A stretch of DNA of 44,598 bases from Patescibacteria group bacterium (lineage in GTDB: Bacteria; Patescibacteriota; Kazan-3B-28; UBA10110): assembly GCA_016936175.1 (NCBI GenBank), contig JAFGPN010000006.1:1-44598 (forward strand). The letters run 5' to 3'. Of this stretch, positions 14,000-36,434 are shown piece after piece. The notes beneath the pieces are model-generated. The model was not told the origin of the DNA. It ran no database searches and worked only from the letters and a program-made list of their open reading frames with translations. How positions within the stretch are numbered: the stretch's first letter is position 1; every line of letters begins with the position of its first letter. The translations under genes and the position numbers were made by a program.

Positions 14000-14014
14000 C
14001 ATTGAAGAGGGTTT

Positions 14015-14294
14015 ACCCCGTTAGAGTTGTTGGGAATGATATATACATATGTTATCCGAAGCGCCAAAGATGGCAGACTATATACTGGCTCAACCAATAA
14101 CCTACGGGAACGACTGAGCCAACATAAGTCTGGGCTTGTAAGCTTAACTAAAAATCGCGGCCCGCTTACTTTGATTTACTATGAAGCCTGTACAAACGAC
14201 CATGATGCACGAATTAGGGAGAAATATCTTAAAACTGGCATGGGTAAACGTTATATCCGAAATCGGCTCAGTCGTTTCCTAACTCTAACGGGGT
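14015..14294 (+). mobile_element. Inverted-repeat-bounded GIY-YIG unit 1
   Basis: ACCCCGTTAGAGTT at 14015-14028 is matched by its exact reverse complement AACTCTAACGGGGT at 14281-14294. Between them lies one gene, a GIY-YIG nuclease. The unit of 280 bases fills the gap between the cdaA-like gene and ybbR, normally adjacent genes. The right repeat encodes the last residues of the nuclease and contains the GTG start of ybbR. No target duplication is evident. Confidence 0.55.
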
Positions 14295-14296
14295 GA
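14036..14296 (+). CDS. Solitary GIY-YIG endonuclease-domain protein (unit 1)
   Basis: An 86-residue single-domain protein starting MIYTYVIRSAKDGRLYTGSTNNLRERLSQHKSG. The two tyrosines with the intervening strand, the Arg of LRERL and the Glu of REKYLKTGMGKRYIRNRL match the catalytic pattern of the stand-alone GIY-YIG family (COG2827/UPF0213, related to the UvrC nuclease domain). TTG codons at 14027 and 14030 are in frame, but the ATG at 14036 gives the canonical start. Its stop overlaps the ybbR start (GTGA). It is bounded by perfect 14-base inverted repeats. It may be the gene that mobilises the unit, but that is inference. Confidence 0.85.
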   Translation: MIYTYVIRSAKDGRLYTGSTNNLRERLSQHKSGLVSLTKNRGPLTLIYYEACTNDHDARIREKYLKTGMGKRYIRNRLSRFLTLTG

Positions 14297-15489
14297 AACT
14301 AAGTTGGCAGAAACAATTCGGCTATCTGATCTTTGTGGCTATCCTATTGTGGTTAGCGGCTTTTGGCATTAGCTATCAATCTTTTAATATAGAACTTCAA
14401 CCTACGGTAACCAATCTGGTTAGTGGGCTGGCTTTGGCGGACAATCCCGAGCCTATTACGGCAGTCATCAGGGCTCGTGTCGGTGTGGCTTATCGTTTAA
14501 AGTCTAGCGGAGCCGTAACCGCCGAATTTGATCTAAGCACCGCTTCAATCGAGGGGAACTATCAGGTAACGCCAGATATAGTCGTAAACCTTAAAGACGC
14601 CTGGCTAATTAGTGCCCAGCCAGAGAAGGTTGAGGTTAAATTAGTGCCGGCGGTAACTCGGACCATTAGTTTGGTGGCCGAACCAGTTGGTTTTCCGGCA
14701 ACCGGTTTTTCTTTAGGAGAGCTCACCGTTACTCCCTCCACTGTCGATATTACAGGGCCGGCCAGCGTGGTTGATGTTATTAGCGAAGCCAGGGTGCCGG
14801 TAAATGTTAAACGAAGAAACAGCAATTTTACCGCTTTTGGCCGGCCACAAGTCAGTGATGTAGATGGTCATCCGGTTGTTAATGTTACTTTTTCTCCCAA
14901 CCAAGTTAGTGTGGCGGTTAACATCAAAATTGGTGATAGTTTTAAAACTATTGGTTTAGTGCCAACCTTCACTGGTGAATTAGCGCCGGGTTACTGGGTG
15001 TCTTACGTCGAATTTGAGCCCCCTACTTTAACCTTGAGGGGTAGTGCCGAAAAGTTATCTGCTATCGATAGCCTTCCAACCACGGCAATCAAGTTGGCGA
15101 ATAGATCGGCTAATTTTACCGATAAGGTGTCTGCCGAACTACCAGCTGGGGTAGTGCTGGTCTCTCCCAATTTAGTTAACGTTAAAATTAAAGTGGCAAT
15201 GTTAGCTAACAATCGCACCCTGGTTTTAATCCCTAGCTATGCCAATATCACCGAAGGATTAAGTGTCACCTCGGTTACTCCGCCGACCGTTCTGGTGGTT
15301 CTTTCGGGCGCGGCCGATAGACTTTCGGGGCTTTCGCGGGCTAACGTCTCTTTGGCGCTGGACTTGCGTGGTCGCCTAAGTGGTTCTAATATGGTTGATC
15401 TGACCCAAGAGATGTTTGAAGTGCCTGCGGATGTTGAGGTAATCAGCTTTGAACCTGCTACTCTCGAGGTTAGTCTAACCAAATCTTAG
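14293..15489 (+). CDS. YbbR/CdaR-like extracytoplasmic repeat protein
   Basis: A 398-residue protein with one N-terminal transmembrane anchor (about 9-28) and a long extracytoplasmic part of four YbbR-type beta repeats. The recurring cues are VEVKLVPAVTRTISLVAEPVG ... LTVTPSTVDITGPASVVDVI, then similar units near 225-260 and 305-340 (PPTLTLRGSAEKLSAI; PPTVLVVLSGAADRLSGL). In other bacteria YbbR (CdaR) binds and modulates CdaA. Its place after the CdaA-like gene supports pairing with it. It begins with GTG at 14293, overlapping the stop of the inserted GIY-YIG gene. The usual third gene, glmM, is not next. Confidence 0.88.
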   Translation: MKLSWQKQFGYLIFVAILLWLAAFGISYQSFNIELQPTVTNLVSGLALADNPEPITAVIRARVGVAYRLKSSGAVTAEFDLSTASIEGNYQVTPDIVVNLKDAWLISAQPEKVEVKLVPAVTRTISLVAEPVGFPATGFSLGELTVTPSTVDITGPASVVDVISEARVPVNVKRRNSNFTAFGRPQVSDVDGHPVVNVTFSPNQVSVAVNIKIGDSFKTIGLVPTFTGELAPGYWVSYVEFEPPTLTLRGSAEKLSAIDSLPTTAIKLANRSANFTDKVSAELPAGVVLVSPNLVNVKIKVAMLANNRTLVLIPSYANITEGLSVTSVTPPTVLVVLSGAADRLSGLSRANVSLALDLRGRLSGSNMVDLTQEMFEVPADVEVISFEPATLEVSLTKS

Positions 15490-20395: not shown

Positions 20396-21385
20396 GTGGA
20401 AGCGGAAATCAAAAAAATAATTGAAGAGGCGAGGCTGGCCATCGAAAAGAGTGACCAGCAATCGCTGATAACTACCGCGGCCAAATTTATTGGTCGCAAG
20501 GGGAGTTTAACCGAAATCTTAAAATCTCTCGGTAGTTTATCTATCGAAGAAAGAAAGCCGGTGGGGGAGTTGGCTAATCGGGCCAAGGTTAAGATCGAGC
20601 AGATGGTGCGTGAGCGCGAAGCCGCTTTGGGTGCGGCACAACACCAACGTCTGATGCAGCGCGATACTACCCTGCCGGGTATCCTGCCGGTCGTAGGGCA
20701 CTTTAGTCCCATTACCCGGATAATTCGTGAGCTGATCGGCGCTTTGTCTGAGTTGGGGTTTGAAGTAGCCGAAAGTCCCGAGGTGGAGTTAGAGCTTTAC
20801 AATTTTGATCTGTTAAATATTCCCCCAAATCATCCCGCTCGCGATCAGTGGGATACCTTCTGGGTCAAAAAGGGCAAGGATAGCAAGAATAGCGCGCTAC
20901 TACGTACCCATACTACCCCGATACAGATTCGCTATATGTTAGAACATAAGCCGCCAATGCGTGTCATGAATCTTGGACGAGCTTTTCGCTATGAGGCAGA
21001 AGACGTTACTCACGCTTCGGTCTTTAGTCAACTCGATGGATTTATGGTAGATCGAGGCATCAGCGTCGCGCATATGAAAAGTGTGATTAACCACTTCGTT
21101 AAAAAGATATTGGGTGAGGAGTGCCGTGCCAGATTTCGCCCCAGTTTCTTTCCGTTTACCGAACCGAGCTTTGAGGTTGATGTTTGGTTCAACGGTAAGT
21201 GGCTTGAGTTGATGGGTTGCGGCATGGTCCACCCGCAGGTTCTGCGCAACGTTAATATCGACCCCAACGAATACAGCGGATTTGCGTTTGGCGCCGGCAT
21301 TGAGCGATTAGCAATGCTGAAATACGACATTAATGATATTCGCTTATTCTTAAGCGGCGACCCCCGCTTTGTCGAACAATTTTAG
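20396..21385 (+). CDS. pheS: Phenylalanine-tRNA ligase alpha subunit
   Basis: A 329-residue alpha subunit of the tetrameric enzyme that charges tRNA-Phe. The N-terminal coiled coil (about 1-85) includes FIGRKGSLTEILKSLGSLSIEERKPVGELAN. The class II core has LRTHTTPIQIRYM (motif 2 region), FRYEAEDVTHASVFSQLDGFMVDR, FFPFTEPSFEVDVWF and motif 3 GFAFGAGIERLAMLKYDINDIRLF. The start is the GTG at 20396; a small hairpin (AGTCcc/ggGACT-like, 20372-20388) sits just before it. pheT follows after a GIY-YIG unit that fills the gap between them. Confidence 0.97.
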   Translation: MEAEIKKIIEEARLAIEKSDQQSLITTAAKFIGRKGSLTEILKSLGSLSIEERKPVGELANRAKVKIEQMVREREAALGAAQHQRLMQRDTTLPGILPVVGHFSPITRIIRELIGALSELGFEVAESPEVELELYNFDLLNIPPNHPARDQWDTFWVKKGKDSKNSALLRTHTTPIQIRYMLEHKPPMRVMNLGRAFRYEAEDVTHASVFSQLDGFMVDRGISVAHMKSVINHFVKKILGEECRARFRPSFFPFTEPSFEVDVWFNGKWLELMGCGMVHPQVLRNVNIDPNEYSGFAFGAGIERLAMLKYDINDIRLFLSGDPRFVEQF

Positions 21386-21400
21386 GTATTTTACCTTTTT

Positions 21401-21752
21401 CGTCATTCCCGCGCAGGCGGGAATCCAGAAAAAATGAGTTCCTACGTTTATATTTTGGCCAGTGCTAAAAACGGCACCTTATATACCGGGGTAACCGCTG
21501 ACCTAATTAAAAGGATGTATGAACACAAAAACAAATTTGTTCCTGGGTTTGCCCAAAAATACTCGGTAGGTAAGTTGGTCTATTACGAAACATTTAACAA
21601 TATTAAAAACGCCATTGTGAGAGAGAAACATATTAAAAAGTGGAATCGAGAGTGGAAGATAAAACTTATTGAACAAAATAATCCTCAATGGAAAGACTTA
21701 TATCAAGAAATTTTAGTTTAATGTCTGGATTCCCGCCTGCGCGGGAATGACG
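21401..21752 (+). mobile_element. Inverted-repeat-bounded GIY-YIG unit 2
   Basis: A 29-base sequence at 21401-21429 (CGTCATTCCCGC to ATCCAGA) is repeated as its perfect reverse complement at 21724-21752. Each arm is itself a hairpin (ATTCCCGC/GCGGGAAT). The single gene between starts four bases after the left arm and ends two bases before the right arm. The unit lies 15 bases after pheS and ends four bases before pheT. A related element without the gene is at 36321-36402. This is strong structural evidence of a compact mobile unit. Confidence 0.65.
21434..21721 (+). CDS. Solitary GIY-YIG endonuclease-domain protein (unit 2)
   Basis: A 95-residue single-domain protein: MSSYVYILASAKNGTLYTGVTADLIKRMYEHKNK, then KLVYYETFNNIKNAIVREKHIKKWNREWKIKLIEQNNPQWKDLY. 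It belongs to the COG2827-type GIY-YIG family with all expected residues (the tyrosine pair, Arg of IKRM, Glu of REKHIKKW). It differs clearly from unit 1 in the REKHIKKWNREWK segment, so the two are separate lineages and not recent duplicates. No transposase is nearby. Confidence 0.9.
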   Translation: MSSYVYILASAKNGTLYTGVTADLIKRMYEHKNKFVPGFAQKYSVGKLVYYETFNNIKNAIVREKHIKKWNREWKIKLIEQNNPQWKDLYQEILV

Positions 21753-21756
21753 CCTC

Positions 21757-24108
21757 ATGAAATTTTCTTATAGTTGGTTAAAGGAATTAGCTAAGTTTAA
21801 ACAAGGTCCACAGGAGCTTGCGAATTTGATTGAACTGCATATTACCGAAATCGAATCGATGAGCAGTGGTCTTTATAACTATAGCGGGGTTGTGGTTGCT
21901 GAGATCTTAGATATCGCCGCGCATCCTAATGCAGACAAGCTTCATTTAGTTACTTTAGATGTTGGTTTAGGCAAACGAGCCACGGTTGTCTGTGGCGCCC
22001 AAAATATTGAAGTCGGACAAAAAGTTCCCCTGGCCTTGGTGGGAGCGATTCTGCCAGGGGGAGAGTTAAAGCCCGCCACCATCAGGGGGGTAGAATCTCG
22101 AGGAATGATCTGTAGCGGGCAGGAGTTAGGCATAGAAGAGAAGTCGGAAGGGATTTTGGTGCTCCCCAAAACGGCTTCGGTAGGGCGGCCGGTCAACGAG
22201 GCGCTCGACGTTAGCGGAGACCCTATTCTGGATCTCAAAATCTTATCGAACCGTCCGGACTATCTCTCTTATGTTGGGATGGCGCGGGAGGTTGCCGCGG
22301 TAGCCGGAATTAAATGGTCGATGCCACTAGATCTCAACTATAAAGAGACCGGTGATGCCAGCAGTAAACATATTAGTGTAGAGATAAAGGACGAAAAACT
22401 CTGTCCTCATTATCGGGCTCACTTTATCAGCAACGTGGAGGTTAAAGAATCACCACAATGGCTGAAAGACAAATTACTCAGTAGTGGCATCAGGCCAATT
22501 AGTAATCTGGTTGATATCTCCAATTTGGTAATGTTAGAAACCGGTCAACCGGTTCATATATTTGATTACGCCAAGGTGGGAGGTAAAAAAATTGTTGTTC
22601 GCTCTGCCAAATCCGGCGAAAAGATTCTTGCCTTAGATGGCGTAGAACGCGAGCTAACCTCCAGTATCTTGTTAATCGCTGACGCCAAGGACCCCATCGC
22701 CTTAGCCGGAATTATGGGTGGAGAGTTAAGTGCGGTCACGGATTTAACCCACGAGATAGTGGTTGAGGTCGCTAACTTTAATCAGGTAACAATTCGGCGG
22801 GGGAGTAAGGCCTTGGGAGTGTCGACGGATGCATCGTTACGGTTCGAACGAGGGCTTACTGCATACTTAGCAGAGCTGGGCATGCGGCGGACACTTAATC
22901 TAATCCAGCAAGTTTTGCCGAAGGCCGTAATATCGAAAGGTGATGTATCAGTGGGCAAGAGCGGATTGGCCGTGCCCACTATCGAATGCTCCACTCAAGG
23001 CATTAATGAGCTATTGGGGACAAAATTAACCGCTTCTCAGATTACGAGTCTGTTAGAGCGCTTAGAGTTCGATGTTAAATCTAGCGGCGGCAAGCTAATT
23101 ATTACTCCGCCGCCATTTAGAGGCGATATCAAAGAGATGCCCGATGTGGCCGAAGAAGTACTGAGGCTCTACGGAATCGATAAAGTCGCCGAAGAGATGC
23201 CAGTGGTGGCGATGCTGGCACCGATAGCTAATCGAGAGGTAGCTTTGGCCGACCAGCTCAAAGACCATTTGGTTAGAAGTGGGTTTACCGAAACTCCCGG
23301 ACATTGTTTTATTGGCGAAGAGTGGGCAAATAAACTGGGGTTAAAAGTGAATGACGAGCTTAAGCTGTTCAATCCGTTGAACAGTAGTTGGACTCACTTG
23401 ATATCAAATCTTTGGCCTAATTTAATTAGATTTGCGCCTAAATTCAGCGAGCCGGTTAAGATTTTTGAGATCAATTCGGTTTTTAATCCGAGCGGGGAAG
23501 TGTTGCCTCTCGAAGAAAGATCATTGTCACTGTTTATTAGTGGGAAAAATATCGACGCTTATCGACAACTGCGTGGCGTGGTCGAAGATTTGTTGTCCCA
23601 AGTTACGGGATTAAAGTTTGTAGCTGTGCCGGGATCGGCGGAGGATCGTTACATCAATGTCTCTCGAATCTTGGCCCAGGACATAGCCTTAGGGAGTATC
23701 GAAGAGCTAAGTCCGCGATTAGCCACCGAGTTGGATCTGCCCAATGGGGGAGTGTGGGCGGAGATAAATCTTAGTTTATTAAGTGGCCTATCGCTTGATC
23801 AGCAGAAGTTTAAACCGTTCAGTCGGTTTCCGGCCTCATCGTTTGATCTATCGGTTACCTTGCCCCTATCTGTTTCTGCTGGATTACTAGTGGGGGATAT
23901 TAAATCTAGTTCGCCGTTAGTGCAGGAGGTTATAGTATTTGATGTCTACCAATTGGCGAGAGACAAGCGGAGTTTAGGAATTAGGGTTGTGGTCCAGTCT
24001 AACGAAAGAACTTTAACCGAAAACGAGATCCGAGCATTAGAAAGTAAATTGATCAATCTGATTACTACCCAACACAGAGGAGTAATTCGTGGCTCTGGGA
24101 GCGAATAA
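21757..24108 (+). CDS. pheT: Phenylalanine-tRNA ligase beta subunit
   Basis: A full-length 783-residue beta subunit. An N-terminal EMAP/tRNA-binding domain (VVAEILDIAAHPNADKLHLVTLDVG, about 47-71) is followed by B3/B4 editing-type domains (NRPDYLSYVGMAREVAAVAG; SNLVDISNLVMLETGQPVHIFDY). Then come B5 (ITPPPFRGDIKEMPDVAEEVLRLYGID), the catalytic-like core and a C-terminal anticodon-binding FDX-ACB domain (FSRFPASSFDLSVTLP ... GIRVVVQSNERTLTENEI). The ATG at 21757 is four bases after the right arm of the GIY-YIG unit. It makes the working tetramer with PheS. Confidence 0.97.
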   Translation: MKFSYSWLKELAKFKQGPQELANLIELHITEIESMSSGLYNYSGVVVAEILDIAAHPNADKLHLVTLDVGLGKRATVVCGAQNIEVGQKVPLALVGAILPGGELKPATIRGVESRGMICSGQELGIEEKSEGILVLPKTASVGRPVNEALDVSGDPILDLKILSNRPDYLSYVGMAREVAAVAGIKWSMPLDLNYKETGDASSKHISVEIKDEKLCPHYRAHFISNVEVKESPQWLKDKLLSSGIRPISNLVDISNLVMLETGQPVHIFDYAKVGGKKIVVRSAKSGEKILALDGVERELTSSILLIADAKDPIALAGIMGGELSAVTDLTHEIVVEVANFNQVTIRRGSKALGVSTDASLRFERGLTAYLAELGMRRTLNLIQQVLPKAVISKGDVSVGKSGLAVPTIECSTQGINELLGTKLTASQITSLLERLEFDVKSSGGKLIITPPPFRGDIKEMPDVAEEVLRLYGIDKVAEEMPVVAMLAPIANREVALADQLKDHLVRSGFTETPGHCFIGEEWANKLGLKVNDELKLFNPLNSSWTHLISNLWPNLIRFAPKFSEPVKIFEINSVFNPSGEVLPLEERSLSLFISGKNIDAYRQLRGVVEDLLSQVTGLKFVAVPGSAEDRYINVSRILAQDIALGSIEELSPRLATELDLPNGGVWAEINLSLLSGLSLDQQKFKPFSRFPASSFDLSVTLPLSVSAGLLVGDIKSSSPLVQEVIVFDVYQLARDKRSLGIRVVVQSNERTLTENEIRALESKLINLITTQHRGVIRGSGSE

Positions 24109-36313: not shown

Positions 36314-36320
36314 TTTTCCT

Positions 36321-36402
36321 GTCATCCCCGTGGAAACGGGGATCCAGAAAAAATAAGCGATGCTTTCGTTTACGTCTAGATTCCCGCCTTTGGGGGAATG
36401 AC
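36321..36402. mobile_element. Gene-less relative of the GIY-YIG unit (MITE-like)
   Basis: Begins GTCATCCCCGTGGAAACGGG followed by GATCCAGAAAAAATAAG. It ends TCTAGATTCCCGCC followed by TTTGGGGGAATGAC. Both ends match the arms of the unit at 21401-21752, including the A-run directly before the nuclease start, but only about 25 bases lie between the arms. It could be a deletion derivative that relied on a nuclease in trans. Confidence 0.55.
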
Positions 36403-36434
36403 GGGTGGAATGGTTTTGCAATGACGAACAGAAA

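Follow-up and report, generated by a model that had tools for sequence, protein, structure and literature searches.

A GIY-YIG nuclease gene framed by inverted CGTC-type REPs in the pheS-pheT gap of a Patescibacteria genome: a candidate mobile unit

In the REPtron, a single enzyme gene lies between inverted REPs, and matching REPs are dispersed in the genome. The enzyme, RAYT (TnpA-REP), is an HuH/Y1 tyrosine transposase, and its repeats carry a GTAG tag. A second system is the Ssn family of GIY-YIG nucleases, which, as reported by Chenal and others in Nat Commun in 2025, cut single-stranded DNA site-specifically, have a repeated, dRS3-like target in Neisseria, and play a role in natural transformation there. 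The CGTC REPs are defined by a CGTC head, a stem of 8 to 9 bp that starts with AT, a loop of 4 to 5 nt and a CCA tail (Di Nocera and others 2013, PMC3733652). Family 1 of these repeats (CGTC-1), with an 8-bp stem and a 4-nt loop, includes Neisseria dRS3 and also RPE-6; CGTC REPs occur in many bacterial phyla, and the 2013 survey found no enzyme for them, a dedicated transposase included (PMC3733652).

Here, we describe a unit in the window, by which we mean the whole 44,598-nt stretch of Patescibacteria DNA that was analyzed. The unit resembles a REPtron in that a single enzyme gene lies between inverted REPs whose matches are scattered through the genome, but it has a GIY-YIG gene and a CGTC tag where the REPtron has an HuH/Y1 transposase and a GTAG tag. 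Its arms are like the CGTC-1 REPs of the 2013 survey (PMC3733652) in head, stem, loop, tail, and dispersed intergenic copies and pairs; whereas those REPs were described without a dedicated transposase, the copies in the window frame a nuclease gene. The features are listed in the table.

Table. Features of the REP-framed unit, its neighbors and a related REP pair in the window
Feature	Position	Strand	Remarks
pheS, left neighbor	20396..21385	+	named from sequence and from position before pheT
Left arm, CGTC-1-type REP	21401..21429	+	CGTC ATTCCCGC GCAG GCGGGAAT CCAGA
GIY-YIG nuclease gene, 95 aa, Ssn-type clade	21434..21721	+	C-terminal NPxWxDLY motif
Right arm, inverted copy of the left-arm REP	21724..21752	-	CGTC heads outward
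pheT, right neighbor	21757..24108	+	abuts pheS without the unit in several relatives
Gene-less inverted CGTC REP pair, 84 bp	36320..36403		inner edges like the unit's own, ATCCAGAAAAAAT

The two arms, 29 nt each and 100% complementary, stand 294 nt apart and close a unit of 352 bp, in which the nuclease open reading frame, running from ATG to TAA, starts 4 nt past the left arm and stops 2 nt ahead of the right arm. This anatomy agrees to the base with the preliminary description of the locus, which had also called the arms REP-type hairpins, and rightly so. Folded by itself, each arm forms a stem of 8 bp closed by a 4-nt loop (-8.9 kcal/mol, z -3.9), and with its CGTC head, AT-starting stem, CCA tail and multiple intergenic copies, it has every feature of a CGTC-1 REP. 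Palindromes of this kind number 6 in the window, against 0.11 expected (both strands, 3 mismatches). Pattern searches of the 670-kb genome counted about 16, where the reversed control gave about 1, and CGTC-1 REPs number about 14 to 16 there in all. The window and genome counts, together with the offset controls given below, rule out a chance inverted repeat. Judging by its inner edges, the gene-less pair in the table is a candidate non-autonomous derivative of the unit.

The protein was assigned to the GIY-YIG family by Pfam (PF01541, 53.8 bits with a cutoff of 22.6); this was its sole Pfam match, and there was none to an HuH/Y1 tyrosine transposase. Its active-site residues are intact, with Y6, Y17, G19, R27, H31, E64, and N83 invariant across 33 homologues. 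The nearest solved structures to an AlphaFold model of the nuclease (pLDDT 91.8) are BH0048 and Slx1. The UPF0213 proteins BH0048 (1zg2) and EF2693 (1ywl) and the structure-specific nuclease Slx1 have the fold and the GIY-YIG active site in common with the window nuclease, and the sequence similarity of BH0048 and EF2693 to it is distant (E 0.0013 and 0.54). The genome holds 13 GIY-YIG matches, uvrC among them, and these are of two sorts. Five genes encode an NP.W.DLY C terminus and are framed by REP-like inverted repeats, no two with the same arm type; the remaining genes are mostly without such framing. In a tree of 93 proteins, built on few columns and with many unresolved forks, 86 rows (the first sort, homologues from multiple phyla, and a gonococcal protein) fell on one side of a branch with an SH-aLRT value of 97.8. 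The mixture of phyla in this clade suggests horizontal spread, though supported branches do not force that reading. Inverted-repeat scores were higher in this clade than around other GIY-YIG genes (p 7e-4). The idea that every GIY-YIG gene is framed alike was therefore rejected; one member of the lower-scoring clade has a different terminal repeat.

The gonococcal homologue, which is 51% identical to the window protein, is embedded in a dense dRS3 cluster, and the first 25 nt of the dRS3 repeats equal the window arm. Given these dRS3 surroundings, we take this protein to be probably Ssn, and the clade of the window nuclease would then be the Ssn family. The likeness to Ssn lies in a small solitary GIY-YIG protein, a clade shared with the gonococcal homologue, and a repeated genomic target; the cognate repeat of the window nuclease stands beside its gene and is repeated in the genome. 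The locus differs from Ssn in that two perfect arms enclose the gene closely in one short unit, here in a bacterium with a small genome, and in that comparisons with relatives point to movement. The preliminary description knew of no described GIY-YIG equivalent of the REPtron, a statement that is not supported in this form, since the Ssn family and its repeated Neisseria target were reportedly published in 2025. A phage or defense gene was also considered and was dropped after PHROG and PADLOC gave zero matches to the nuclease and phage records gave one weak match.

The pairing of gene and arms extends across the family. Searching GTDB genomes with the protein alone yielded 80 homologous loci from many phyla. 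Inverted repeats scoring at least 15 within 150 nt framed 45 of the 80 (the other 35 scored below 15), whereas 278 control positions, offset on those contigs, scored 14 at most, so that arms are not equally common at random positions. Of the 42 cases that could be classified, 36 have their REP heads facing outward (p 3e-6).

Gene and repeat also occur together. Across 287 genomes from the phylum, CGTC-1 REPs (one or more) were present in 63 of the 82 genomes with the gene and in 21 of the 205 without it (odds ratio, 29; p 4e-28 by a Fisher test, which ignores kinship), and permutation within families gave a P value of 0.001. Because some REP-rich genomes are without the gene (G037 has 31 REPs; G149 also has REPs), relics or other movers exist. 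The arm in genome G120 is of a different type, CATTCCAGA-N16-TCTGGAATC, with 28 and 30 matches on the two strands at about 30 sites in that genome and zero sites in the 9 other genomes searched; CGTC-1 REPs are absent from G120. The arms in G155 and G157 tend in the same way to be specific to their own genomes. Thus, genomes with other arm types carry dispersed REPs of the matching type. In the roughly 30 REPs of G120, the outer stem (ATTCCAGA/TCTGGAAT) is constant and the inner part varies, often staying self-complementary, which suggests that the outer stem is recognized and that the tip need only form a hairpin.

We compared occupied and empty sites. The pheS-pheT gap of a same-genus relative contains only a degenerate hairpin pair, the REP is absent from this gap in G003, of the same family, and pheS and pheT practically abut in G006, G008, and G029. 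In G004, the gap holds an unrelated GIY-YIG gene (40% identity) with different arms. These comparisons support insertion of the unit, as had been proposed, and the relatives compared at pheS-pheT do not share the gene at this site; vertical inheritance of the unit there is ruled out by their empty or differently filled gaps. Neither of the two patterns that the preliminary description had named as refutations was observed. In Azospirillum lipoferum, the gene lies between sufB and sufC with REP pairs on either side, and A. oryzae, A. ramasamyi, and strain B510, which are about 95% identical around the site, lack both the gene and the REPs. A different unit occupies the sufB-sufC gap of Shinella sp. 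PSBB067; the REP-framed units of Azospirillum lipoferum and Shinella sp. in this gap (L185 2355-2972 and L193 900-1500) are unrelated. On Sphingobium plasmids, arm, gene, and arm stand between fnrL and a response regulator gene, where relatives have at most a single hairpin. Preferred sites seem to be gaps within conserved operons (sufB-sufC, and pheS-pheT in two genera of the window's order).

Duplicated units were found as well. The draft assembly G172 has two 414-bp units, 99.5% identical and 4.4 kb apart, whose identity ends at the outer arm edges and whose flanks are unrelated. In one metagenome-assembled genome, two units (L045 and L057) share near-identical arms, although their genes are clearly diverged and their flanks unrelated. 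Unlike classical DNA transposons and insertion sequences, which have a target-site duplication, the G172 duplicates showed none at their borders, and none was apparent at the sufB-sufC site. The site comparisons and duplicates show that units are gained, lost, and duplicated as blocks that run from arm to arm. The earlier proposal of a mobile REP nuclease unit stands in large part, as the G172 duplication and the empty sites support behavior as a unit; the novelty it attached to the pairing of nuclease and repeat is lost to Ssn.

With this anatomy and clade, the family-wide pairing of gene and arms, and the genome-wide match of arm type to REP type, we read the unit as an Ssn-type GIY-YIG nuclease gene flanked by two copies of its own recognition repeat, which the enzyme would nick and by which the unit would spread (probability of about 70%). 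Counting against it are the 35 homologues below a score of 15, the REP-rich genomes that lack the gene, the two syntenic units and the Bradyrhizobium arms described below, the absence of target-site duplications at the G172 duplicates and the sufB-sufC site, and the draft state of the G172 assembly. GIY-YIG enzymes hydrolyze DNA, and we know of none that joins strands; insertion would therefore have to use host repair. We propose that the enzyme attaches to the arm hairpin and makes its nick there while the DNA is single stranded, either on the lagging strand at replication or in incoming transforming DNA. With both outward-facing arms nicked, the unit would be freed or exposed in single-stranded form, or else a lone REP or a pair of REPs would be. 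In what is the least certain step, host repair or recombination would then insert the released DNA elsewhere, usually between genes, by a route other than RAYT strand transfer, such as repair of nicked or single-stranded intermediates. Dispersed REPs would be non-autonomous passengers, by analogy with GTAG REPs and RAYT transposases.

Some observations fit a resident gene with a role in regulation or genome dynamics, whose nuclease cleaves single-stranded DNA that bears REPs, as might happen in natural transformation, and whose arms are its own control or target sites in a unit that does not move. The role in transformation reported for Ssn in 2025 speaks for this view. Two of the genome's five units are syntenic with the sister species (G001), which means that movement is not frequent, and in one of them, about 66 nt of left arm and start region are wholly identical between the species (G000 and G001) beside a gene that is 77% identical, so that arms can be under constraint. 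We nevertheless consider a resident gene unlikely, given the arm-to-arm duplication with unrelated flanks in G172, the empty sites in close relatives, and the unrelated units that share a gap (pheS-pheT in G000 and G004; sufB-sufC in Azospirillum and Shinella).

The REPs may instead be moved or recombined by other means, with a nuclease gene that sits between two REPs carried along by homologous recombination among dispersed copies. The REPs without the gene in G037 and G149 and the gene-less REP pairs in this genome and window fit such carriage. So does Bradyrhizobium (L039, L041, and L107), in which the orthologous gene stays put and both arms have switched REP type together, so that arms are swappable in concert. 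Carriage of this kind leaves unexplained why this GIY-YIG clade is framed and other GIY-YIG genes are not, why arm type matches the REP type of the genome, and why gene and REP co-occur within families, and we hold it to be quite improbable. A free-standing homing endonuclease, which would cut the unoccupied allele and be copied in by break repair, is very improbable, for although such enzymes occur among GIY-YIG proteins and the sites lie between conserved adjacent genes, different nucleases fill the same gap and the empty pheS-pheT (G003, G006, and G008) and sufB-sufC (A. oryzae and A. ramasamyi) sites have no arm-like target, with the reservation that the recognition site could be something else.

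Beyond a REP-flanked nuclease gene with its own recognition repeats, a broader claim, to which we give even odds, is that, throughout bacteria, Ssn-type nucleases are the missing dedicated mobilizers of REPs with a CGTC tag, among them dRS3 and the Rickettsia RPEs, with the REP-framed nuclease as the autonomous element and solitary REPs and pairs as its passengers. If that is true, a hydrolytic nuclease without strand-transfer chemistry drives the spread of a repeat family. The comparative data point to one small nuclease family, the question is directly testable, and the nuclease link would explain the spread of CGTC REPs, including that of dRS3 in Neisseria genomes. The pairing of nuclease and repeated target is already known from Ssn. 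What may be new is the nuclease as the missing partner of CGTC REPs. Several results go further than anything we can confirm as published, namely that the arms are CGTC REPs, that gene and repeat co-occur across the phylum, that the pairing is specific to the arm type, and that comparisons point to mobility of the unit; our literature search found no paper that joins GIY-YIG with REPs, which is weak evidence, as most subscription papers lay outside its coverage.

Other elements were seen in this genome and elsewhere. A second, different GIY-YIG gene (14036-14296, 86 aa) lies in window positions 14012-14297 between the terminal inverted repeats TTTACCCCGTTAGA and TCTAACGGGGTGAA. With 2 mismatches, a 14-mer of this terminal repeat has about 55 matches in this genome, against 5 for the reversed control, and 72 in the sister species; most of them form opposed pairs 105 to 125 nt apart. 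These pairs look like a MITE family, of which the gene at 14036-14296 is a possible autonomous member. Of the inverted-repeat pairs of TTxACCCCGTTAGA, two (L271 and L275; G000 C12:16650-16781 and C18:50206-50327) enclose complete tRNA genes, tRNA-Val cac and tRNA-Met cat, and others have short unknown inserts of several subfamilies, which had no Rfam matches. At L164 (G000 C2 10150-10431, minus strand), the nuclease open reading frame continues through the right-hand REP and ends in ...SLDPRVKPEDD...; such REP-encoded tails probably create spurious protein ends in annotations. On a 71-kb plasmid of Planktothrix agardhii (L183), an Ssn-like gene lies between genes for a type IIL restriction enzyme and a DISARM helicase.
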